NCBI GenBank assembly: GCA_017306415.1
Contig: JAFKIL010000002.1
Span: forward strand, 186,001 to 250,000
Length of the DNA stretch: 64,000 nucleotides
DNA from: Microbacterium sp.
GTDB taxonomy: Bacteria > Actinomycetota > Actinomycetes > Actinomycetales > Microbacteriaceae
Direction: 5' to 3'
Shown: positions 5,674 through 36,014 of the stretch, in pieces
How positions within the stretch are numbered: the first letter of the stretch is position 1
Layout: every line of letters starts with the position of its first letter
Made by a program: the position numbers and the translations under genes
The notes under the pieces: generated by a model
The model's input: the letters and a program-made list of their open reading frames with translations, nothing else
Database searches by the model: none
Told to the model about the DNA's origin: nothing

Positions 5674-7428
5674 TCATTCCGTCAGGCCGTGCCTCGTGAG
5701 CACGATCTGGGTGGGTCCGGCGGGAAGATCCAGGGTGATCTCGATGGCGTGACGACCGGCGCGCTGCACGTCCGCCACGGGCAGCCGGGTGCCGTCGAGC
5801 GCCGCCTGCCAGTCCTCTGCGCGTCCGGGGACGTCGACGACCAGCCCCGCCTCCGAGAGAGGGGACGACGAACGGATGCTCAGCACCACCTCGTCCGGAC
5901 GCCCCGCGACCTCGATGTCGACCCCGCGCCGCAGACGCTCGTACAAGTTGATCTCGCCGGCGGTCCACCAGGGCATGCTCCGCGCGCGTCCTGCGTCCGC
6001 CGCCCGGCGTACGGCGCGGGCGACCCGCTGATTGCCCACCATGTTCGTCCCGTGGAAGAGGAAGTGCGCGACCCCGTGGCGGGCGAGCGCCTCGTCGAGG
6101 ATCACGTCGATCACGTCCTCGTGACTCTGATAGCCGACGTCCTGCGTGTGCAGCGGCATCGACAGGACGTCGAAGCGCCGTCCGTCGGCGTCCACGGGGA
6201 ATCCGACGTGCGTGGTGCCGTACGGGAACCCCACCGTGCCGGGCTTGCTCGGACCGCGGGTCTGGTCCAGCTCGACGCCGAGGTCGTCGCACCAGCCGAA
6301 GAACTCGGTCCAGCCCTCCCACCGCGTGTAGTGGTTCTTGTTCACCACCACCGGACCGCCGACGAGCGCCTCCGCCCACGCCTTCTGCTCCGCCATCCCG
6401 CTCTCGCCCCAGGGCATCCCGTCGTCGATGTCGAGGGCGTTGTAGTGCAGCGCGTGCTCGTGCCCCGCCGCGCCGATCGCCTCGATCACGTCGGCGCTGT
6501 AGCCGCCCGGCCAGCAGTGGCACCAACTCACCCGCACGTCGGCATCGGCGAACGCGCCGAGGGCGAGTCGCGCGTGCTCGTCCTTGTTCTGGTCGGCGTC
6601 GTGCGACATGTGGCCGACGGCGTCGACACCGCTCGGCCAGTAGTGCAGCCACGCGAGCGGGACAGAGCCCGATGCCGCCGCGTCCCGCAGCAGCTGGAGC
6701 ACCAGCTCCCGCCACAGATCCGCGTGCGCGCGATGGAAGACCGGCACCGGGGTGATCGGCGGATACGACGCCGGGTACGCCCCCTCGGGGGTGCTCCCGT
6801 CGGGCAGCGCGCGATCGGCGACGTAGTCCAGCGCGAGCCCATCGTCGCAGCGCAGGATGTCGTCGGCGCCGACCGGCGCCGAGCCGTCGCCGGCGGGGTG
6901 GCCTGGCCCGGTCACGGGCCAGCCCTGCTGGATGCGGCCGACGGACTGCCAGACATCCGGCCCCAGCACGATGACGCTGCCTGCGCCGACGGCGCGTCGG
7001 GTCACGGCGGGAGATCCGTCGATCCAGCGTGCGAGCACCTCGACGTCGTCCAGCGATCGGAGGACACGACCGCCGAAGGCGTGCAGCATGACGTCGAAGC
7101 GGGCCGCCCACGGCACGTCCGGATCGATCCGGATGTGGCCGTCCGGCACGGCGTCGGCGTCCTCGACGCCCGCGAGGGGACCGAACGCCGCCGCGCCACC
7201 ACCGCAGAGCAGCGCGCCCCCGGAGCGCACCCACTCCCCGACCCGACGCACGGATGCCTCGTCGAGCGTCACGGCGGACGGGATCAGCAGCACCCCGGCG
7301 TCGTCGAGCGACGAGGCGAGGTCTCCGGCGGCGCGGGACGCGTATGCCAGCCGCAGGTGATCGAACATCTCCCGGGCGAACGTCGCCCACGGGTCGCGTG
7401 TCTCGAGGAGGACCACGGCGCGACTCAC
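5674..7428 (-). CDS. Two-domain protein: GATase-like N-terminus plus polysaccharide-deacetylase-like barrel
   Basis: A 584-residue protein that I cannot assign to a named enzyme. Residues 1-170 look like a class I glutamine-amidotransferase-like (ThuA or beta-galactosidase-associated) fold: GVLLIPSAVTLDE, WVRSGGALLCGGG and GAGSVIVLGPDVW. Residues about 250-500 resemble the NodB/polysaccharide deacetylase barrel. SHDAD (275-279) would be the metal-binding Asp motif, GHEHALHYN (322-330) the His motif, and HFLFHG (455-460) the last strand. No signal peptide is seen, so it is probably cytoplasmic. The GTG start overlaps the stop of the GH20-like gene as GTGA. Its likely role is processing an imported sugar derivative, which is inferred from the neighbours. 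A start further upstream is unlikely because it would lie inside the previous gene. Confidence 0.75.
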   Translation of the reverse strand: MSRAVVLLETRDPWATFAREMFDHLRLAYASRAAGDLASSLDDAGVLLIPSAVTLDEASVRRVGEWVRSGGALLCGGGAAAFGPLAGVEDADAVPDGHIRIDPDVPWAARFDVMLHAFGGRVLRSLDDVEVLARWIDGSPAVTRRAVGAGSVIVLGPDVWQSVGRIQQGWPVTGPGHPAGDGSAPVGADDILRCDDGLALDYVADRALPDGSTPEGAYPASYPPITPVPVFHRAHADLWRELVLQLLRDAAASGSVPLAWLHYWPSGVDAVGHMSHDADQNKDEHARLALGAFADADVRVSWCHCWPGGYSADVIEAIGAAGHEHALHYNALDIDDGMPWGESGMAEQKAWAEALVGGPVVVNKNHYTRWEGWTEFFGWCDDLGVELDQTRGPSKPGTVGFPYGTTHVGFPVDADGRRFDVLSMPLHTQDVGYQSHEDVIDVILDEALARHGVAHFLFHGTNMVGNQRVARAVRRAADAGRARSMPWWTAGEINLYERLRRGVDIEVAGRPDEVVLSIRSSSPLSEAGLVVDVPGRAEDWQAALDGTRLPVADVQRAGRHAIEITLDLPAGPTQIVLTRHGLTE

Positions 7429-26971: not shown

Positions 26972-27397
26972 TCAGCGAACGGAGCCTGGTGTCGGATCTC
27001 CTGCAGAGAAGAGAACCTGCCGCGCCCGGAGAATGTGTCGCTCCGCGAACTCCTTTGGATGGAGCCAGACGTCGTCGATGACTAAGCCTCCACCTGTCCC
27101 TCCTGCCACGCTGCTTCCCACTGGCAGATGCTCCACCGTGATTTCGAGCATTGAGGGGTCATCCCAGACCAACGCGTCAAGTTCGGCTGCGAGCTGCGCG
27201 AGCGGTTCGGCGCTGCAGCGAGTCAGTCGAAGCGGCACGGTCAGGTAGATGGTGCCGCCGTCGTCTCCGGAGATCACGATGGCAGCGTCGGGATCGGTGC
27301 GTGCTTCCGCCCACGACTGATAAGCGCGGGTCTGGCGCCCCTGGCTTTCGGCCATCAAGGCACGTAGCGGCGAACTTGGCAAGCCATCATCGGTCAC
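26972..27397 (-). CDS. Hypothetical soluble protein
   Basis: A 141-residue acidic protein without signal peptide or membrane segment. It has a polar N-terminus, alternating strands (AAIVISGDDGGTIYLTVPL, SMLEITVEHLPVG) and a glycine-rich turn VAGGTGGG. I do not recognise the family. Its 3' end overlaps the open, start-less frame of the DUF4304 remnant, suggesting the two became joined by a deletion. It lies in the accessory patch beside the OLD nuclease gene. The start ATG lacks a strong ribosome binding site. Confidence 0.5.
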   Translation of the reverse strand: MTDDGLPSSPLRALMAESQGRQTRAYQSWAEARTDPDAAIVISGDDGGTIYLTVPLRLTRCSAEPLAQLAAELDALVWDDPSMLEITVEHLPVGSSVAGGTGGGLVIDDVWLHPKEFAERHILRARQVLFSAGDPTPGSVR

Positions 27398-27657
27398 GGC
27401 AAGACGCTAGCGCCAACATGCAAAGCTCGATAGCCGGTCGCGGAGCGCGCGGAAGAACCTAACCGATACGCAAACGAACAACGCTGACGAGCGGTGCGCG
27501 CTTGACCCGTCCGCACCGACGCCCGCTGACTGTGCCCTGACCGAAACGCGCGCCTACGCCATTGAGCGCACAAGAACGAGCGTCAACTCCGCTGCCATCA
27601 CCGCCGGGAAGCGGTGTCCGAGATCACCCATCGCGGTCCCCTGGGTTCGAGAACGCG

Positions 27658-28023
27658 TCAAGCCACGTTCTCGATGAGGTGCAGCTGCGTCCCGTCTGGA
27701 TCGACGAGGAAGCCAGCGCGTTGTCCCCACGGTTGCGGCCGAATGGGTTGCAGGCGAGGTGCTCCGGCGGTCCGCTCCGCCACGCCGGCCTCCGTGAGCT
27801 GCCGGTACAGTCCGTCGACATCGTCGACGCGGACGCTGCACATGAACGAGCTCTCTTCGGGAACAAGACCCGGGTAGGGGAAGAACTCCAGTTGCAGCTC
27901 CCCTCGACGCAGGATCAACCAGTCGTCGTCTCGATACGCCACGTCGAACCCGACCGCTTCGTAGAAACCGATCGTCTCGTCGAAAGAGCGCGAGGGCAGA
28001 TTGGGCACCGCTCTGTCAGCCAT
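27658..28023 (-). CDS. VOC-superfamily / bleomycin-resistance-like protein
   Basis: A 121-residue protein of the vicinal-oxygen-chelate fold. It has two beta-alpha-beta modules (NLPSRSFDETIGFYEAVGF, and CSVRVDDVDGLYRQLTEAGV) and the closing strand GQRAGFLVDPDGTQLHLIE. The layout matches Ble-type proteins that sequester bleomycin. Many such genes are simply VOC proteins with unknown ligand, so resistance is not demonstrated. It lies 29 bp downstream of dnaB on the same strand. Confidence 0.88.
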   Translation of the reverse strand: MADRAVPNLPSRSFDETIGFYEAVGFDVAYRDDDWLILRRGELQLEFFPYPGLVPEESSFMCSVRVDDVDGLYRQLTEAGVAERTAGAPRLQPIRPQPWGQRAGFLVDPDGTQLHLIENVA

Positions 28024-28052
28024 GTCGAGAGCCTAGCGAGCCGGGCAATCTC

Positions 28053-29423
28053 CTACCCGAAGTCCCCCGGGGCCATGTCGGCGAAGCGCGAGAAATGGCC
28101 CTGGAAGGCGATCTCGATCGTGGCGGTGGGGCCGTTGCGGTGCTTGGCGACGATCAGGTCGGCCTCGCCGGGACGGCTGTCTTTGTCGTAGACCGACTCG
28201 CGGTGGAGCAGCATCACCATGTCGGCGTCCTGCTCGATCGAGCCCGATTCGCGCAGGTCGCTGACCTGGGGCTTCTTGTCCTGCCGCTGCTCCGACCCGC
28301 GGTTCAGCTGCGAGAGCGCGACGACCGGCACCTGGAGCTCCTTGGCGAGAAGCTTCAGCGCACGCGAGAACTCGCTGACCTCCTGCTGGCGCGACTCGAC
28401 GCGCTTGCCGCTCGTCATGAGCTGGAGGTAGTCGATGATGACCATCTTGAGACCCGCGCGCTGCTTCAGCCGGCGGCACTTCGCGCGGATCTCGACCAGC
28501 GTCATATTGGGGCTGTCGTCGATGTAGAGCGGCGCGTCGTTGATGCGGCCGCGCGTGGCGGCCACCGTCGTCCAGTCGCGCGAGTCGAGCGTGCCCTTGC
28601 GCATGTTCTGCAGCGGGATGGCGCCTTCGGCGCTGAGGAGCCGCATCGCGATCTCGCTGCGGCCCATCTCGAGCGAGAAGAAGATCGTGGGCATGTTGTG
28701 CTTGATGGCCGCCGACCGGGCGAAGTCGAGGGCGAGCGTCGACTTGCCCATCGCGGGGCGGGCGGCGACGACGATCATCTGGCCCCCGTGCAGACCGTTG
28801 GTGAGGTCGTCGAGCGGCTTGAACCCGGTCGGGATGCCGGTCATCTGCCCGTCACGCCCACGCGCGGCCTCGATCTCATCGACCGCCGCGTCGACCGCGA
28901 TCGTGAGCGGGACGTAGTCCTCCGCCGTCTCGGCGCCGGTCACGGAGTAGATCTCGGCCTGCGCGCTGTTCACCAGCTCGACGGCCTCGCCCTGCCCCGA
29001 GTACCCCATCTGCACGATGCGCGTGCCGGCCTCGACGAGCCGGCGCAGCAGCGCGCGCTCCGAGACGATTCCGGCGTAGTAGCCGGCGTTCGCCGCCGTG
29101 GGGACGATCGAGGTGAGAGTGTGCAGATAGTCGGCACCGCCGGCGCGCTGCAGCTCGCCGGTCTTGATGAGCTCGTCGGTGACGGCCACGACATCGGTCG
29201 GCTCGCCGTGCGAGTACAGGGTGAGGATCGCCTCGAAGATCAGCTCGTGCTTCGGGATGTAGAAGTCGGCCGCACGCAGCGTCTCGATCACGTCGGCGAC
29301 CGCATCCTTCGACAGCAGCATCCCGCCCAGCGCGCTCTGCTCGGCGAGGATGTCGTGCGGAGGGGTCCGGTCCGGCGTGCGGGGTCCGCCCAGGCGCTCG
29401 TCAGAGATGTCAGCGATCGACAC
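28053..29423 (-). CDS. dnaB: Replicative DNA helicase DnaB
   Basis: Hexameric 5'-3' helicase of the replisome, 456 residues, normal length. The N-terminal DnaB domain starts PPHDILAEQSALGGMLLS. The RecA-like domain has Walker A VVAARPAMGKSTLALDFAR, the FFSLEM segment after it, IDYLQLM (Walker B) and LSQLNRGSEQR with the arginine region. No intein insertion is present. I chose the GTG at 29423, with GGAGG 9 nt upstream. The neighbourhood, with rpsF-ssb-rpsR-rplI on the same strand further upstream, is the usual actinobacterial arrangement, here interrupted by two plus-strand surface genes. A cluster of DnaA-box-like sequences lies in its promoter region. Confidence 0.97.
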   Translation of the reverse strand: MSIADISDERLGGPRTPDRTPPHDILAEQSALGGMLLSKDAVADVIETLRAADFYIPKHELIFEAILTLYSHGEPTDVVAVTDELIKTGELQRAGGADYLHTLTSIVPTAANAGYYAGIVSERALLRRLVEAGTRIVQMGYSGQGEAVELVNSAQAEIYSVTGAETAEDYVPLTIAVDAAVDEIEAARGRDGQMTGIPTGFKPLDDLTNGLHGGQMIVVAARPAMGKSTLALDFARSAAIKHNMPTIFFSLEMGRSEIAMRLLSAEGAIPLQNMRKGTLDSRDWTTVAATRGRINDAPLYIDDSPNMTLVEIRAKCRRLKQRAGLKMVIIDYLQLMTSGKRVESRQQEVSEFSRALKLLAKELQVPVVALSQLNRGSEQRQDKKPQVSDLRESGSIEQDADMVMLLHRESVYDKDSRPGEADLIVAKHRNGPTATIEIAFQGHFSRFADMAPGDFG

Positions 29424-29636
29424 GTCGTGCGTCCTCCACATGGCAATTCCGGATGATGGTGCTCACGAACGGAAGGCGCGCGTGGGCATCGTGGCCGGAT
29501 GCCTCGAGCACCCCTTCCGTGACCGATAGACGATCACGGACCTCCGACATCCGTCTTCTCTGACGGATCCGCTGCCAGCCCCCCGAAGAGCCGTGCCCCC
29601 ACGCTATGAGGGTGCTTCGACACCCGCAACTCGGCC

Positions 29637-29832
29637 TGTGGATAACTGTGTGGACAGTCTGCGCGAAACGCCGCCCGACCTGTGTACAACGCCTGTGGAG
29701 AACTGTGGGTTCGGGAGTTCGCACAGAGTTTTTTCCCAGCTTTGACCTGGGCTTTATCCGAACTTCCTGTGTGGAGCGAGATGTGATTGAAGTTGGGATT
29801 GAAGGTTGTGGGCGACCGGAGAGTTATGCACA
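29637..29832. promoter_or_regulatory. Cluster of DnaA-box-like sequences upstream of dnaB
   Basis: This 623-bp intergenic region (29424-30046) is AT-richer than its surroundings. It holds a perfect DnaA box, TGTGGATAA (29637-29645), plus near matches TGTGGAGAA (29694-29702), TTATCCGAA (29754-29762) and TTATGCACA (29824-29832), each with one or two mismatches. They may let DnaA regulate dnaB or form a DnaA-titration site. Nothing else recognisable is present in the gap; the region must also hold the promoters of dnaB and of the plus-strand surface gene. Confidence 0.45.
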
Positions 29833-30046
29833 GAAACGGCCCGTGCACAAGTTTCGCGCCCCCTTCGCGATGTCGGGCGTGTCGGAACCCCGCCCGCGCG
29901 CAGGCCACGGTCGCGGATGCCCGCACCACGGATGATCTTTCGCGTCAAGGCCCCTAGACACAGCGGTGACGGAGGCGTACATTCGCGTGTTATCCAGGAC
30001 GTCGGACCCCAGCCGACGACCGTTCGCTCTCTCGGGGGAGGTGAGC

Positions 30047-30991
30047 ATGGACTTCATTCGCGTCTTCGGACGTCGTGGCGTGACGCGCCCCGTGCTCATC
30101 GGCGCGGGCCTGGCCTTCGCATGGCTGGGCGCGTCGATCATCCTCGGCATGACCAGCTCCGGCGCCCACGCCGACAGCCGTGACCCTGGGCCGCTGGACG
30201 GCCTCACCTCGAGCGTGTCGCGGGTCGCCGAAGACGTCGTCCACCCGCTCGCCTCGGCGCTCTCGCCCGTCGTGACACCCGTCGCCCACGCGGTGACGCC
30301 GGTCGTCCACGCCGCATCCGTCCCGGTCGCCCACGTGACGACGCCGGTCGCCGCCGTCGTCAAGCCGGTCGCGACCGCTGCCGCCCCTGTCGCTCAGGCG
30401 GCCGCGCCGGTCGTCGCCGCCGCAAAGGCCGCGACGACCTCCGTCACGGCACCGGTCACCGACGTGCTGGCACCCGTCATCGGCGCTCTGCGACCCGTCC
30501 TCGACCCCGTGGACAGCACCCTCGCTCCGGTCGGCGACGCGCTCGCACCGGTCCTCACGGCGCTGCAGCCGGTGCTCGACCCCGTCGCCGGCGGCCTTCC
30601 GCCTGTCCTGACACCGCCCGTCGTCTCGCCCGGAAGCGCGACGCAGACGAACGAACTCGCGGGCGGCAGCGCGACCACCGCACCGGCCGGGGCCCTCGGC
30701 GGCTTCTCCTTCGACGCCGCCCTGACGACGCTGCGGGCCGTCGTGACGACCGCGGGCGCGGCATCCGGACTGCCATTCTCACCCGGAGACTCCGGCACGC
30801 CCTTCTCTCCGCTGGCCGCGATGGCCGCGACCTCCGTCTCCTCCGGTGCCTCCGGCACGGGGCTGGGACTGCTCGCGCTCGCCGTCGTGGGCTTCGCCTT
30901 CGCTCGACCTCTGGCGGGTCTCACACGTCGACGTGCGGACGACCGCCTTCCCGTCTCGGCCACGTTCGAGACCGACTCCTCCCCCGACTGA
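30047..30991 (+). CDS. Pro/Val-repeat surface protein with N- and C-terminal membrane segments
   Basis: A 314-residue protein of unknown function. An N-terminal hydrophobic segment (about residues 15-38, probable signal peptide ending near AHADS) is followed by a long low-complexity region. This repeats units of the type P-V-(V/L/A)-x-x-(V/A), for example SPVVTPVAHAVTPVVHAASV and LAPVIGALRPVLDPVDSTLA. A Gly/Ser/Ala stretch follows, then a C-terminal membrane helix (GLGLLALAVVGFAFA) with a basic tail. The layout is that of a cell-envelope protein with an extended stalk, but I see no LPxTG-type sortase motif. GGGGGAGG lies 5 nt before the ATG. It is followed 92 bp later by the chaplin-like gene, so the two are probably one unit. 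Confidence 0.75.
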   Translation: MDFIRVFGRRGVTRPVLIGAGLAFAWLGASIILGMTSSGAHADSRDPGPLDGLTSSVSRVAEDVVHPLASALSPVVTPVAHAVTPVVHAASVPVAHVTTPVAAVVKPVATAAAPVAQAAAPVVAAAKAATTSVTAPVTDVLAPVIGALRPVLDPVDSTLAPVGDALAPVLTALQPVLDPVAGGLPPVLTPPVVSPGSATQTNELAGGSATTAPAGALGGFSFDAALTTLRAVVTTAGAASGLPFSPGDSGTPFSPLAAMAATSVSSGASGTGLGLLALAVVGFAFARPLAGLTRRRADDRLPVSATFETDSSPD

Positions 30992-31083
30992 TCGGGACCC
31001 CGCCGTGCCTGCGTGCGCGGCAGACGGGTCATTCTCGCGCCATCGGCGCACTCCGATCAGTTCGACTAAGGGGAAGCATCATC

Positions 31084-32529
31084 ATGAACACTTTCGCGAG
31101 GAATGCCCTGTGGGGCACCCTCATCGCGGGCGGCATCACGCTGCTCGGAACAGCGGCGGCCAACGCCGCTGAGACCTCGGGCGCGGACGGCGTCGGCTCC
31201 GGGAGCCAGGCACCGATCAGCGTCAGCGTCCCGATCACCCTGGGCGGCAACGCCGTCTCGGTGCTCGGCACGTCCCACTCCGCCGGTGCGCCGGCAGCGA
31301 GCACGCCCGCAGCGGCACCCACCGCCTCCACGGGCGGCGACACCACCAGCGGGAGCGGGGGAGCCGCGAGCGGCACCCAGGCGCCCGTCACCGTGTCGGT
31401 GCCGGTGAACCTGCACGGCACGGCGGTGTCCGTCGTCGGCGACTCGGCGTCGACCGGCGGGGGCAGCACCTCAGGGACCGCACCGGCCGCTCCGGCGCCC
31501 GCCGCGGCGAGCACCACCGACGGAGCGGACGGGGTCGCCTCGGGGACCCAGGCGCCCATCGCCGTGAGCGTGCCCGTGAACGTCGCGGGCAACGGGATCT
31601 CGGTGCTCGGTGACTCGTCATCGAGCGGCACGGGGAGCACCCCGGCCGCCGCACCCGCCGCGACCGCACCGGTCACGACGAGCGGCACCGACAGCATCCT
31701 CGGCGGCACCCAGCTGCCGATCGCGCTGAACGTCCCGGTCGGGCTCGGCGGGAACGCCATCTCGGTGCTCGGCGACTCCACCAGCGGCGGAACCACCGCG
31801 GGCACCGGCACGCCCGGCACCACCGGCGGCAACACCACCAGCGGCACCGACGGGATCGCCGGCGGAACCCAGGCACCCATCGACGCCGCCGTCCCGGTGA
31901 ACGTCCGCGGGAACGCCGTCTCGGTCCTCGGCGACTCCACCAGCAGCGGAACCACCGGGGGCACCGGCACCACCGGCACACCCGGCACCACCGGCGGAAA
32001 CACCACCAGCGGCACCGACGGGACCGCGAGCGGAACCCAGGCACCCATCGACGCCGCCGTCCCGGTGAACGTCGGCGGGAACGCCATCTCGGTCCTCGGC
32101 GACTCCACCAGCGGCGGAACCACCGCGGGCACCGGCACCACCACCGGCACCACCGGCGGCAACACCACCAGTGGCACCGACGGGATCCTCGGGGGCACCC
32201 AGCTCCCGATCCGGATCGCCGCTCCGGTGAACCTCGGCGGCAACGCCATCTCGGTCATCGGCGACACGACCACCGACCCCGGCACTCCCGGCACCCCCGG
32301 TGACCCCGGCACGCCTGGAGACCCCGGCACGCCCGGAGACCCCGGCACGCCCGGAACCCCGGGAACCGGCGCGCAGCCCACGGCCGTGGGCGATGTGACC
32401 GTGCTGGCCGCGGCCGACGGGACACTGGCCGAGACCGGCGGCGGGGAGTACCTGCCCGCCCTGATCGGAGCCCTGGTGTTCCTGATCGCCGGGTTCGGGA
32501 CGCTCGCCCTGCGCCACCACAAGGCCTGA
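31084..32529 (+). CDS. Chaplin-like repeat protein with LAETG cell-wall anchor
   Basis: A 481-residue secreted surface protein. The signal peptide covers residues 1-28. Seven copies of an about 33-residue unit start near residues 32, 89, 146, 200, 253, 309 and 363; the core is GTQAPI....VPVNV.GNA(I/V)SVLGDS, which closely resembles the hydrophobic chaplin domain of Streptomyces but without its cysteines. Thr/Gly/Pro-rich linkers separate them. Residues 399-427 form a collagen-like Gly-x-y run (GTPGDP repeats). The end has LAETG (448-452), a hydrophobic helix and RHHK, a class E-type sortase signal of high-GC actinobacteria. Family function suggests amyloid-like, surface-active fibrils covalently fixed to peptidoglycan; this is inference. 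AAGGGGAAG precedes the ATG. Confidence 0.85.
   Translation: MNTFARNALWGTLIAGGITLLGTAAANAAETSGADGVGSGSQAPISVSVPITLGGNAVSVLGTSHSAGAPAASTPAAAPTASTGGDTTSGSGGAASGTQAPVTVSVPVNLHGTAVSVVGDSASTGGGSTSGTAPAAPAPAAASTTDGADGVASGTQAPIAVSVPVNVAGNGISVLGDSSSSGTGSTPAAAPAATAPVTTSGTDSILGGTQLPIALNVPVGLGGNAISVLGDSTSGGTTAGTGTPGTTGGNTTSGTDGIAGGTQAPIDAAVPVNVRGNAVSVLGDSTSSGTTGGTGTTGTPGTTGGNTTSGTDGTASGTQAPIDAAVPVNVGGNAISVLGDSTSGGTTAGTGTTTGTTGGNTTSGTDGILGGTQLPIRIAAPVNLGGNAISVIGDTTTDPGTPGTPGDPGTPGDPGTPGDPGTPGTPGTGAQPTAVGDVTVLAAADGTLAETGGGEYLPALIGALVFLIAGFGTLALRHHKA
31177..32268 (+). repeat. Seven in-frame chaplin-like repeats
   Basis: Units recur every 53-57 codons (about 160-171 bp). Units 5 and 6, with their linkers (roughly 31840-32150), are nearly identical in DNA as well as in protein, showing recent duplication. 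Units 1-3 are more diverged. Copy number may vary between strains. Confidence 0.85.
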
Positions 32530-32539
32530 CCACCCGGCT

Positions 32540-32574
32540 GGGTGCGCGGGCGCGCTGCGGCGCCCCGCGCACCC
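32540..32574 (+). terminator. Hairpin terminator after the chaplin-like gene
   Basis: GGGTGCGCGGG (32540-32550) pairs with the segment 32563-32574 (CCCCGCGCACCC), 11 bp with one bulged base, beginning 10 bp after the stop codon. Confidence 0.65.
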
Positions 32575-32689
32575 ACCGGCGTGCGTCGACCCGCCTCGGC
32601 TGAGAGAGGGGCGAACGACACGCGCGTTCGTGCCGAGGCGCCTCCCGGGCGGTGGTGGCGATGATGTCGCCCTGCCGCGGGCGGAAAAG

Positions 32690-32731
32690 GCGGATGCCGC
32701 GGAATCCCTGGGGGGGGATCCGCGGCATCCG
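32690..32731 (-). terminator. Hairpin terminator after rplI
   Basis: The segment GCGGATGCCGCGGAATCC (32690-32707) pairs with 32715-32731 over about 16 bp with a single bulge. It lies 33 bp past the rplI stop on the minus strand, in the convergent gap with the chaplin-like gene. Confidence 0.65.
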
Positions 32732-32763
32732 TCTTCGCCCCGCCGTCGGCGGGTGCAGAGGAA

Positions 32764-33216
32764 CTACTTGGCGGCGACCACCTGGAGGGTGATCACGGCG
32801 GTGAGGTCGTCGCGGAGGCGGATCGTCGCCTCGTGCTCGCCCACCGACTTGATCGGAGAGGTGATGTGGATCTTGCGCTTGTCGAGGTCGCCGAGGCCGG
32901 CGGCCTTGACGGCATCCGCCACGTCGCCGGTCTTGACGGCGCCGAAGAGGCGACCCTCGGAACCGGCCTTCACCGCGAGGCGGACCGTGTTGTTCTCGAG
33001 CGCGTCCTTGAGGGCCACGGCCTCCTCGTGGTCGTGGATCGCGCGGGAGTCACGGGCCGCGCGAATCGACGCGACCTGCTTCTCGCCGCCGCGCGACCAT
33101 GCGACCGCGAAGCCCTGGGGGATGAGGTAGTTGCGGGCGTACCCGTTCTTGACCTCGACCACGTCACCGGCGCTGCCCAGCCCGGCGACCTCGTTCGTGA
33201 GAATCAGCTTTGCCAT
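32764..33216 (-). CDS. rplI: 50S ribosomal protein L9
   Basis: A 150-residue large-subunit protein, normal length. The N-terminal domain shows the L9 signature [24 protein letters not shown] (residues 15-38), then a long charged connecting helix, and a C-terminal rRNA-binding domain. AAGGAG lies 7 nt before the ATG. It is the last gene of rpsF-ssb-rpsR-rplI. Confidence 0.98.
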
Positions 33217-33227
33217 GGGGATGCTCC

Positions 33228-33482
33228 TTAACGGCCGGCGCCGGCGTAGGGCAGGAGAGCCATCTCGCGCGCGTTCTTGATGGCGCGGGCGATGAGGCGC
33301 TGCTCCTGCACGGAGACACCGGTGATACGACGGGCGCGGATCTTCCCGCGCTCCGAGATGAACTTGCGAAGCGTCGCGACGTCCTTGTAGTCGATGACGC
33401 CGACGCGGGTCGGCTTCGCGGGAGCGGCGGTCTTGCCGCCCTTCCGCGGCTTGCGGCGGTCGCCGCTTGACTTTCCAGCCAT
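33228..33482 (-). CDS. rpsR: 30S ribosomal protein S18
   Basis: An 84-residue small-subunit protein that binds S6 in the 30S platform. [26 protein letters not shown] is the S18 signature. The lysine-rich N-terminus ([14 protein letters not shown]) is normal for actinobacteria. It contains no CxxC zinc pair, so it is a zinc-independent-type sequence. It lies between ssb and rplI. Confidence 0.98.
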
Positions 33483-33538
33483 GTCTCTTCCTTAGGGTGT
33501 GTCGGATGCCTCAGCCCGAGGCGTCCGGAATCTCGTGT

Positions 33539-34042
33539 CTAGAACGGGGTGTCGTCGCCGTAGGAGCCCGGAGCGCTCCACGCGTCGGCGCCACCGGTCG
33601 TGGCGGAACCCGGCGTGGCCCACGGCTCGTCGGCGACCTGCTGCTGCGGGCGCGACTGGCCGCCCCCGCCGCCACCGCCGGCTGCACGCGTGACCTGTGC
33701 GGTCGCGTAGCGCAGCGACGGGCCGATCTCGTCGATCTCGAGCTCGATCGAGGTGCGGTTGTTGCCCTCGCGGTCCTGGTAGGAGCGCTGCTTCAGGCGA
33801 CCGGTCGCGATGACGCGGGAGCCCTTCGTCAGCGAACCCGCCACATGCTCGGCGAACTCGCGCCACACGCTCGCGCGGAGGAACAGCGCTTCGCCGTCCT
33901 TCCACTCGTTCGTCTGGCGGTCGAGGGTGCGGGGCGTCGACGCGATCGTGAAGTTCGCGACGGGCAGCCCGTTCTGCGTGTAACGCAGCTCGGGGTCGGC
34001 CGTGAGGTTGCCCACGACGGTGATGATCGTCTCACCGGCCAT
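33539..34042 (-). CDS. ssb: Single-stranded DNA-binding protein
   Basis: A 167-residue SSB. The OB-fold covers about residues 1-110 ([54 protein letters not shown], with [17 protein letters not shown]). A Gly-rich linker follows, and the acidic C-terminal tip ends DDTPF, the tail that recruits replication and repair proteins. The ATG at 34042 lies 5 bp downstream of the rpsF stop. Confidence 0.97.
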
Positions 34043-34047
34043 CGTCG

Positions 34048-34425
34048 TTACGCCTTCGGGGCCTTCGCCGGGGCGGCAGCCTTGCGGGCGGCCTTCTCGT
34101 CGGAGCGCTTCTTCTCGGACGCGATCATGGCGATGGCCTCCTCGGCCCGCAGGACCTTGGTGCGCATGATCTGCTCGCTGAGCTTCAGCTGGCGGTCGAG
34201 CTCCTGGGTGGCCTCGCTCGACGCGGTGAAGTTGACGACGGCGTAGATGCCCTCGGTCTTCTTCTGGATCTCGTAGGCGAGACGCCGGCGGCCCCAGATG
34301 TCGACGTTGTCGATCGAGCCGCCGTCGTTGGTGATGACCTTGAGGAACTTGTCGAGGTTCGGAGCGACCTGGCGCTCGTCGATCTCGGGGTTCAAGATCA
34401 CCATGAGTTCGTACTGATGCGTCAC
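34048..34425 (-). CDS. rpsF: 30S ribosomal protein S6
   Basis: A 125-residue protein with the S6 fold: [16 protein letters not shown] at the start and [25 protein letters not shown] in the middle. A long Lys/Ala-rich C-terminal tail is common in actinobacteria. It starts with GTG, 7 nt after GGAGG. It heads the operon; its promoter should lie in 34426-34560. In many bacteria S6-S18 autoregulates this mRNA, but I could not identify the motif here. Confidence 0.97.
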
Positions 34426-34596
34426 TGACCCACCTCCTTCGGACTAGAACGGCTGACGGGCATTTCCCGGCAGCAGGAGGGTGTGTGCACGTCGCCCGAC
34501 TTCTCGCGCATGAGCGCGTGCGGACAACCCTCCCACTGTACCGGATGCCGCGTCCCACGCCCAATCCCTCATCCAGACTCCGCCCTCGCCCTCACC

Positions 34597-34656
34597 GTTT
34601 ACGGACGGAACACGCCGCGTCGTGCGGCACGCGAGCGGCGTGTTCCGTCCGTAAAC
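34597..34656. terminator. Perfect 22-bp hairpin between rpsF operon and symporter gene
   Basis: Arm 34597-34618 (starting GTTTACGGACGGAACACG) is perfectly complementary to 34635-34656, with a 16-nt loop. It lies 9 bp past the stop of the minus-strand symporter gene and upstream of the rpsF promoter, fitting a terminator of the mannosidase-symporter operon. No T-tract on either side. Confidence 0.7.
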
Positions 34657-34664
34657 AGCCGGGC

Positions 34665-36014
34665 TCAGGATGTGTGGACGGGCGTCCGAAGGCGGTAGAA
34701 GAGGAACGGGACCGCAGAGACGAGGCAGCTCGCGGCGGGGACGAGGGTGAGCCCGATGAAGACGATGTTCTGCATCTGCGGCGTCACCGTCACGCCGGCC
34801 TGGTACCCGGCGATCACGATGATCGCCCCGAACACCAGCACGGCGAGCGCGCTCATGACCTTCGAGACGAAGGTGAGCGTCGAGAACGAGATCCCGTCGT
34901 TTCGGATGCCGGTCCTCCGCTCGATGTCGTCGACCGCGTCCGCGATCATCGTCGTCTGGACCACGACGAAGATGCCGAGGCTCAGCCCGGTGAGGAAGAT
35001 GAAAGCCACCACCGCCACGATGTTCTCGAAACCGGCGACGTACATCAGCACATAGAACACGGCGGCGACCAGCGAGCTCCACAGGATGAGAGACTTCCCC
35101 GTCATCACCCGGAGCACGAGGGGGCAGAGGAACGACGCGAGCACCATGCCCACGATCACGGACGCGCCGATGAGCGTGAAGTACCCCTCGCTGCCGTAGG
35201 CGATCACGACGAAGACGGCGCCGCCGGCCTGCACCATGTTCCGACCGAAGCCGAGCACCGATCCGAGGAGCACCATCAGCAGCGGTGTGTTCTTGAACAG
35301 CGTCGTGAACAGCTGTCGGAAGCCCAGCCGCTCGCGGTCGCCCCGCGCTCTCTCGCGCGTGTTGAAGAACGCGAGCACGAACAGGCCCATGCCGATGACG
35401 GATGCCGCAGCCACCGCCAGGGTCCATCCCGCCGCCGTCGTCTGCGGTGAGAAGCTCAGCGCGAGCGCCAGCCAGGGGAGCCCCAGCGTGGCGAGGCCGA
35501 GCGAGATCCCCCCGAACGCGCGCACCCGCGCGACCACCCCGGTGCGCTCCCTCGGATCGGGGAACGCCGAGCCGATGAGTCCCCAGAACGGCACATCGCA
35601 CACCGTGTAGGCGAAACCCCACAGGAAGTAGCAGACGCCGAAGAACACGAGCTTGCCCGGCTCGGGGACATCGGGGATCGCGAACAGCAGCGTCGACAGC
35701 ACCGCGACCGGCACGGTCGAGAAGAGGATGTACGGCCGCATCTTTCCCCAGCGCGTGTGCGTCATGTCCACGACGCTGCCCATCACGGGATCGCTGACGG
35801 CATCGGCGAGCTTGGCCACCGTGATGATGATCGTGACGACGGCCATCCCCTGCACGCTGATGTGCGCGTACTCGAGCAGGTACACCAGGATGAACGTCGT
35901 CACCGTGGTCAGCACGAGGTTCTGGCCGAACCCGGCGGCGATGATCGAGCTGCGCTGGAGGCGTGGCGTCAGCGCACGGCCGCGGCGCGTGAGGAGTGTT
36001 TCCGTGTCGGTCAC
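34665..36014 (-). CDS. GPH/MelB-like sugar:cation symporter (MFS fold)
   Basis: A 449-residue inner-membrane transporter with about 12 membrane helices. DPVMGSVVDMTHTRWGKMRPYIL near residues 75-97 is the glycoside-pentoside-hexuronide symporter signature, with the cation-site Asp region and the conserved R-W-G-(K/R)-x-R-P. It probably takes up mannosides or oligosaccharides for the adjacent alpha-mannosidase. The GTG start lies 1 bp after the mannosidase stop, with AGGGG 6 nt upstream, so the two genes are tightly coupled. Confidence 0.92.
   Translation of the reverse strand: MTDTETLLTRRGRALTPRLQRSSIIAAGFGQNLVLTTVTTFILVYLLEYAHISVQGMAVVTIIITVAKLADAVSDPVMGSVVDMTHTRWGKMRPYILFSTVPVAVLSTLLFAIPDVPEPGKLVFFGVCYFLWGFAYTVCDVPFWGLIGSAFPDPRERTGVVARVRAFGGISLGLATLGLPWLALALSFSPQTTAAGWTLAVAAASVIGMGLFVLAFFNTRERARGDRERLGFRQLFTTLFKNTPLLMVLLGSVLGFGRNMVQAGGAVFVVIAYGSEGYFTLIGASVIVGMVLASFLCPLVLRVMTGKSLILWSSLVAAVFYVLMYVAGFENIVAVVAFIFLTGLSLGIFVVVQTTMIADAVDDIERRTGIRNDGISFSTLTFVSKVMSALAVLVFGAIIVIAGYQAGVTVTPQMQNIVFIGLTLVPAASCLVSAVPFLFYRLRTPVHTS

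Follow-up and report, generated by a model that had tools for sequence, protein, structure and literature searches.

Does a surface protein built of many chaplin-like repeats, encoded by a member of the rod-shaped, non-mycelial genus Microbacterium, belong to the chaplins, and how might such a protein be made and displayed? The question is raised by one open reading frame in a stretch of 64,000 nucleotides from a Microbacterium sp. genome (3.76 Mb in 13 contigs). This whole stretch is called the window here, and the features given by position within it all lie on its forward strand. A sequence-only reading had described the product as a secreted, cysteine-free chain of seven chaplin-type units with a collagen-like segment and a class E sortase signal. 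We have compared the units with classical chaplins, searched the genome for sortases, surveyed relatives in the genus, family and class, and analyzed the DNA immediately upstream. That DNA encodes a secreted partner protein and an RNA element, neither of which the sequence-only reading mentioned and which are the more novel parts of the locus.

The units compared with classical chaplins

The reading frame had been placed at 31084-32529, which is correct to the base; it starts with ATG and encodes 481 amino acids, none of them cysteine, and relatives of the product are found in 51 further loci. A signal peptide is recognized by eye at about residues 1-28 (31084-31167), with a putative cleavage site, and AlphaFold models residues 2-27 as a helix. 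Seven units of 39 amino acids, which align without gaps, do lie in a single secreted chain, as had been proposed. They occupy 31165-31281 (residues 28-66), 31336-31452 (85-123), 31507-31623 (142-180), 31669-31785 (196-234), 31828-31944 (249-287), 31996-32112 (305-343) and 32158-32274 (359-397), with spacings of 14-18 residues; linkers across the relatives measure about 14-47 residues. The units are followed by a Pro-rich stalk (32275-32370), which in the window protein takes the form of ten Gly-x-y triplets, and by a sorting signal of the class E type, LAETG (32425-32439), after which a membrane helix and a basic tail, RHHKA, extend to 32526. Mean GRAVY is 0.80 for the hydrophobic unit cores compared with -0.29 for the linkers. 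AlphaFold modelled the cores as short hydrophobic beta-strands at low confidence; mean pLDDT was 45.7 for the whole protein and 60.3 for a two-unit fragment, low in both cases, and therefore no fold can be claimed for this protein. Sequence searches for solved structures returned none for the units and none for classical chaplin domains.

The whole protein matches the chaplin model PF03777 with an E-value of 5.1e-19 (68.3 bits), and 4 stretches pass individually. A separate comparison of each unit with this model had been suggested as a check. In the genome search all seven units were matched singly, the third with the top score (26.1 bits) and the others with 21.3, 21.3, 19.8, 12.8, 9.8 and 8.5 bits. 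Three of the seven exceed the cut-off of 21 bits alone; none spans the full domain, the matches stopping at profile position 45-51 of 57. No match at E <= 0.001 was found in any of 14 control genomes; at E <= 10 there were matches in five of them, none above the cut-off. A profile of 39 units, hand-picked from the 383 of the window and its relatives, was aligned by hhalign with 24 classical two-cysteine chaplin domains, giving 95.8% probability and E 6.6e-9 over 28 columns with 43% identity. This alignment stops at the Gly after GN-(I/V)xV(I/L). Together with the PF03777 match it upholds the earlier assignment of a chaplin-type core to the units. The classical domains were 24 of 45 stretches, their source genus being taken as Streptomyces, and cysteines are present in all of them because the search pattern demanded two. 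In NCBIfam, the chaplin-like protein had solely a sub-threshold match to an LAVTG anchor (14.9 bits, cut-off 27).

The two consensus sequences, SPGVxSGNxVQVPVDVPVNxCGNTVxVxGLLNPAxGNxC for the 24 classical domains and DGILSGTQxxxxVxxPVTxGGNAISVxGDS for the 39 units, show where the two groups differ. None of the 383 units, from 53 open reading frames including that of the window, contains a cysteine, so that the cysteine-free character noticed in the window protein holds throughout the sample; Gly occupies the position of the first cysteine in 48% of them. Nothing in the units corresponds to the C-terminal LLNPAFGNxC, which holds the second cysteine, and they thus fall short of the full domain length. 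The classical domain carries three GN motifs spaced 12-13 residues apart (PMC13251363). Of these the units keep the middle one, with N in 86% of them at position 29. They have GT in place of the first in 80% and GN itself in 9%, and the 39-residue unit has no equivalent of the third, which leaves fewer than the three of the classical domain. The hydrophobic strand core is strongly conserved across all 383 units. By profile comparison the units are homologous to chaplins, yet three defining features of the classical domain are missing from them. Long chaplins act together with short chaplins; judged by gene presence only, no gene for a short chaplin was found in this genome, and its sole other PF03777 match (E 0.6, 12.3 bits) is not a credible chaplin. 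ChpE, which lacks both cysteines, makes fibrils in vitro (PMC3079736), and chaplin-like genes have been reported in the non-sporulating Arthrobacter chlorophenolicus (PMC4255298); chaplins that are cysteine-free or come from outside Streptomyces are therefore not unprecedented.

Anchor, stalk and distribution

The genome encodes two sortases, one of class C and one of class E. The class E enzyme, for which a search had been proposed, scores 233.3 bits against NF033747 (cut-off 160). The class C enzyme scores 257.5 bits (cut-off 160); the gene for this pilin-type sortase lies in the same genome at L061:5446-6375 (G000:C11). Enzymes of class E accept LAxTG signals, and in S. coelicolor they anchor ChpC (PMC5148588). 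As expected of a long chaplin, an LAxTG signal is thus accompanied by a class E sortase gene in the genome, and we infer that this sortase may act on the chaplin-like protein. The C-terminal LAxTG signal is found in 51 of the 53 open reading frames, the exceptions being L063 (LAQAG) and the first of the two reading frames into which the gene of L049 (G125) is broken. In this last locus a frame break inside the repeats separates 6 units from 5.

The collagen-like stalk of the earlier description fared less well. Ten Gly-x-y triplets are indeed present in the window protein, but they score below the Pfam collagen cut-off (PF01391, 21.5 against 27.2 bits) and such a run is not conserved. By a crude rule, the stalks of the 53 reading frames are Gly-x-y in 12, have Gly at every fourth position in 19, have Pro at every third position and no Gly run in 19, and are of other kinds in 3. 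A collagen stalk is thus ruled out as a conserved part of these proteins; the conserved feature is a Pro-rich spacer and not a collagen helix.

Matches to PF03777 were found in 86 of 149 sampled genomes of the genus, in 54 of 249 genomes of the family (25 of 85 genera) and in 97 of 394 genomes of the class, and the unit profile matched 93 of the 149 genomes of the genus. The 53 reading frames come from 52 loci, of which 51 are distinct (L066 and L082 coincide, and L049 contributes two reading frames), and have 5-10 units each. The 13 loci of named relatives belong to Microbacterium, Labedella, Schumannella, Agromyces, Okibacterium, Compostimonas and Frigoribacterium. Within the genus the gene is flanked by dnaB in 40 and by rplI in 38 of 42 stretches, and by both in 36; neither gene is nearby in the nine stretches from other genera. 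Among the 56 members of the genus with no match to the unit profile, 16 genomes were examined. In nine of these the gap between dnaB and rplI measures 372-658 nt, too short for either the partner or the chaplin-like gene. One has a swapped payload, two have a partner with no intact chaplin-like gene, and four are unclear or different. The module is therefore dispensable, since 9 of the 16 chaplin-negative genomes checked appear to have neither gene.

The secreted partner and the RNA element

Directly upstream of the chaplin-like gene lies the gene of a secreted, Val/Pro-rich partner, P0002 (30047-30991). Its open reading frame opens with GTG at 29966, and by eye the ATG at 30047 is the likelier start. 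The signal peptide was also judged by eye; the body of the protein is divergent, and the gene is present as a single copy in the genome. A partner of this kind directly precedes the chaplin-like gene in all 52 chaplin-positive loci examined (51 distinct), and is also upstream in the nine loci of other genera that have no dnaB or rplI nearby. In each locus the partner was chosen as the upstream reading frame richest in Pro-Val, with no use of its C-terminus; tblastn detected it in just 12 of the 51 stretches with a chaplin-like gene because of its low complexity. As first called, the partners are 312-546 amino acids long and conserved in composition. P0002 and the partners from two relatives had no match in Pfam, and NCBIfam gave no match of weight.

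Conservation of the partner is concentrated in its C-terminal 17 residues (DDRLPVSATFETDSSPD), encoded together with the stop codon at 30938-30991. This tail ends with [S/T/A]-P-D-stop, and identity drops to background upstream of it. Counts over the 51 distinct loci are 47 for Asp -17, 49 for Pro -13, 42 each for Pro -10 and Thr -6, 46 for Asp -5 and 48 for Ser -3; the terminal Pro-Asp is present in every one. The codons of Pro -13 and -10 vary and therefore selection there is on the amino acids. Near the stop, Ser is encoded by TCT in 30 of 52 loci and Pro by CCT in 28 of 52, compared with 7% of Ser codons and 9% of Pro codons over the whole partner gene; these codons are complementary to the Shine-Dalgarno region of the gene that follows.

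The two genes are joined by a predicted RNA three-way junction (30962-31095), in whose closing helix the 3' end of the partner gene and its stop pair with the Shine-Dalgarno sequence AAGGGGA of the chaplin-like gene. In the fold of 30965-31100, UCCCC of the partner and the stop region pair with this site (z -2.74, 1 of 200 shuffles being as good). Two of the 51 loci, L063 and L087, have no recognisable Shine-Dalgarno site and were dropped from the recoding test. In the remaining 49 the site pairs with the last 21 nt of the partner gene at a mean probability of 0.81, compared with 0.43 for synonymous recodings, and 47 of the 49 lie above their recodings (Wilcoxon p 2.5e-14, without correction for relatedness). 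The exceptions are L057, which is below its recodings, and L083, which has no such pairing. For the window taken alone the test is not significant (0.67 against 0.57, with 23% of recodings as good). Permutation of arm-Shine-Dalgarno complementarity gave 7.06 observed against 6.19 +/- 0.18 (0/2000, likewise not corrected for relatedness).

Covariation was assessed in an alignment of 35 of the 51 distinct loci, with the remaining 16 held out for tests. RNAalifold proposed two inner helices with compensatory changes and not the closing helix, which was added by hand because the spacing of the Shine-Dalgarno site varies. Double-sided changes occur in 57 cells of the structure completed in this way; shuffled alignments gave 18.1 +/- 3.4 (0/500) and slid controls 5-29. 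The first inner helix accounts for most of the changes, with 5 of 5 pairs affected; in the closing helix 2 of 12 pairs are affected, the clearest case being the pair between the Ser codon and the Shine-Dalgarno site (U-A 18, C-G 9, U-G 6). Pairing cells amount to 74.6% in the closing helix and to 94.1% and 92.1% in the inner helices. Two of five covariation measures are less clear against shuffles, namely double-sided pairs (5/500) and further pair types (23/500). Sequence analysis establishes a conserved, covarying RNA that would be able to hide the Shine-Dalgarno site of the chaplin gene. Rfam had no match to it in the window at 27000-35000.

Of 23 held-out loci with a retained partner, a covariance model built from the 35 loci recovered 22 at E <= 0.01, the other, Okibacterium L088, reaching just 0.24. 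It matched none of five loci that have no module; the model includes coding and start-codon sequence, so that its score reflects more than structure. Among 58 relatives, 28 matched at E <= 0.1, a count that includes weak false matches such as L194, which was rejected as an RNA element since its match lies inside a coding gene. Across the family, 19 of 150 genomes and 14 of 85 genera matched at E <= 1e-4. A side observation concerns L158 (G022), where at about 5696-6053 the partner is retained and the start of the chaplin-like gene is apparently present as an inverted remnant beside it; the model matches the plus strand at 5696-5828 (56.2 bits) and, weakly, the minus strand at 5919-6053 (18.3 bits, E 0.06).

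The protein encoded downstream is not always chaplin-like. In L151 (G028) and L167-L170, together 5 of the 149 genomes of the genus, an unrelated second repeat type (the VGDGIVDPLLGDDG type) takes the place of the chaplin units, and there is no overlap between these five genomes and the 93 that carry chaplin units. Each of the five loci has the RNA element. L151, the sole second-repeat locus examined in full, has a like signal peptide and stalk, ends in LAATG and keeps the partner. Outside the genus 17 RNA elements were found, and seven were examined, chosen for lying in genomes outside the listed PF03777 positives of the family. Each of the seven is preceded by a partner with an [S/T]PD end and followed by an LAxTG protein; judged by eye, the repeats are chaplin-type units in six of these proteins and of another kind in the seventh (L196). 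L190 has a further type of payload, and L192 has chaplin units behind a partner ending in RPD. In L191 the partner ends in SPA and no downstream reading frame was detected; in L189 no LAxTG reading frame was detected downstream. In L193 (G014), an open frame of 1,176 residues downstream of 3437 encodes chaplin-like units that are divergent and contain Trp, together with a long stalk of the PGLPGLP type; this locus also has an STPD-ending partner and an RNA element of its own. Judged by these gene arrangements, the partner and the RNA, lying upstream of LAxTG proteins with unrelated repeats, are a display module with an exchangeable payload.

Function and relation to known systems

The explanation that we consider probable is that the window protein is a divergent long chaplin, translationally coupled to its partner and forming a hydrophobic, beta-rich coat or an adhesin. 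It builds on homology, architecture, the sortase gene, the constant partner and the conserved covarying RNA, all established by sequence analysis. The partner would be translated first, as the leading gene of the module; ribosomes at its last codons and stop would open the three-way junction and free the Shine-Dalgarno site of the chaplin gene, so that the two proteins would be made together in vivo and both exported. The class E sortase would then anchor the chaplin-like protein to peptidoglycan at LAETG, the variable Pro-rich stalk holding the seven cysteine-free cores outward on flexible linkers. Neighbouring units may associate through beta-strands into a wall-tethered hydrophobic layer or an adhesive surface. 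Amyloid formation, a hydrophobin-like coat and adhesion, which the sequence-only reading had raised, are candidate properties, on which the low-confidence AlphaFold models could not decide. Chaplins have been linked to attachment (PMC4255298, PMC7766987). No short chaplin was found in the genome, and therefore the chain most likely acts alone or with its co-made partner.

It is possible, and in our view rather unlikely, that the protein is a passive stalk or rod adhesin, in which the beta core is kept as a spacer or a ligand-binding repeat with no self-assembly or hydrophobic coat. According to a review, one of the two amyloid regions of ChpH lies near its C-terminal end and is tied to rodlet formation (PMC7766987). 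The units stop before the C-terminal part of the domain and seem to have lost this region, which counts against an amyloid role and suits a passive stalk, as do the lack of cysteines in all 383 units, the low-confidence models, the linkers of about 14-47 residues and the occupation of the same scaffold by unrelated repeats elsewhere. Against it, all 383 units show strong conservation of the hydrophobic strand core, and cysteine-free ChpE does form fibrils in vitro (PMC3079736).

A second alternative concerns the partner and is compatible with a coupled long chaplin, so that both may hold. Here the module, found in Microbacteriaceae and some other families of the order, would have in the 17-residue tail of its partner a nascent-chain sensor of the SecM kind: slowed export would stall the ribosome at the C-terminus, at the stop, hold the RNA open and yield more surface protein, and coat synthesis would respond to export. 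We regard this as doubtful. The partner has a signal peptide by eye, a divergent body and conservation that is limited to the 17 residues before its stop, and it precedes an RNA that covaries and would hide the Shine-Dalgarno site of a secreted product. The same anatomy is described for secM-secA, in which an upstream gene with an export signal and a conserved C-terminal segment is followed by an intergenic RNA that hides the downstream Shine-Dalgarno site (PMC7897499); in our case the hiding rests on prediction and covariation, and arrest is a candidate only. Unlike secM-secA, the genes downstream of the partner encode LAxTG surface proteins and not Sec or YidC parts, and the tail is unrelated, with no RAPP- or RAGP-type motif; the likeness to SecM is therefore a lead and not a membership. 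The partner body is moreover long (312-546 amino acids as first called) and compositionally kept, which would be unexpected for a mere sensor, and a plain coupling device with a C-terminal binding tag would account for the same facts. As for the idea that low-complexity V/P/G/S/T repeats match PF03777 by chance or by composition, which the scores of single units near or below the cut-off might suggest, it is extremely improbable and is ruled out by the profile-profile alignment (28 columns, 43% identity to classical chaplins) and the control genomes (0/14 at E <= 0.001), with conservation in 52 loci.

A divergent long chaplin invites comparison with ChpA-C of Streptomyces coelicolor, which are likewise secreted and hydrophobic, with chaplin cores and an LAxTG class E signal. 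ChpA-C have two cores, whereas the proteins described here have 5-10, lack both cysteines, the third GN and the LLNPAFGNxC end, occur with no short chaplin found in the genome, and follow a partner and an RNA element. Loss of both cysteines is shared with known chaplin domains, which in the descriptions available (PMC3079736, PMC13251363) are not tandems of many shortened cores. The chaplin-like genes of Arthrobacter chlorophenolicus also lie outside the aerial-growth lineage, and the available description of them mentions neither a partner nor an RNA element (PMC4255298). CwpA and CwpB of Actinoplanes missouriensis are hydrophobic wall proteins that also depend on a class E sortase; unlike in the units studied here, no chaplin domain is seen in them by their authors (PMC13251363). 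Among open-licence papers on chaplins in these taxa, arrest peptides and coupling, the display module was not found described, its partner being nameless. We class the window protein as a long-chaplin variant encoded within this coupled module.

The occurrence of these proteins in Microbacterium, and also in related genera, suggests that surface proteins of the chaplin type do not depend on aerial hyphae. It makes testable whether a chaplin core, with neither disulfides nor short chaplins to assist it, can suffice to form a hydrophobic or adhesive layer on the wall. If the tail of the partner is an arrest peptide, export would be linked to coat synthesis, and the module would be a monitoring system that controls a surface coat rather than the Sec machinery.
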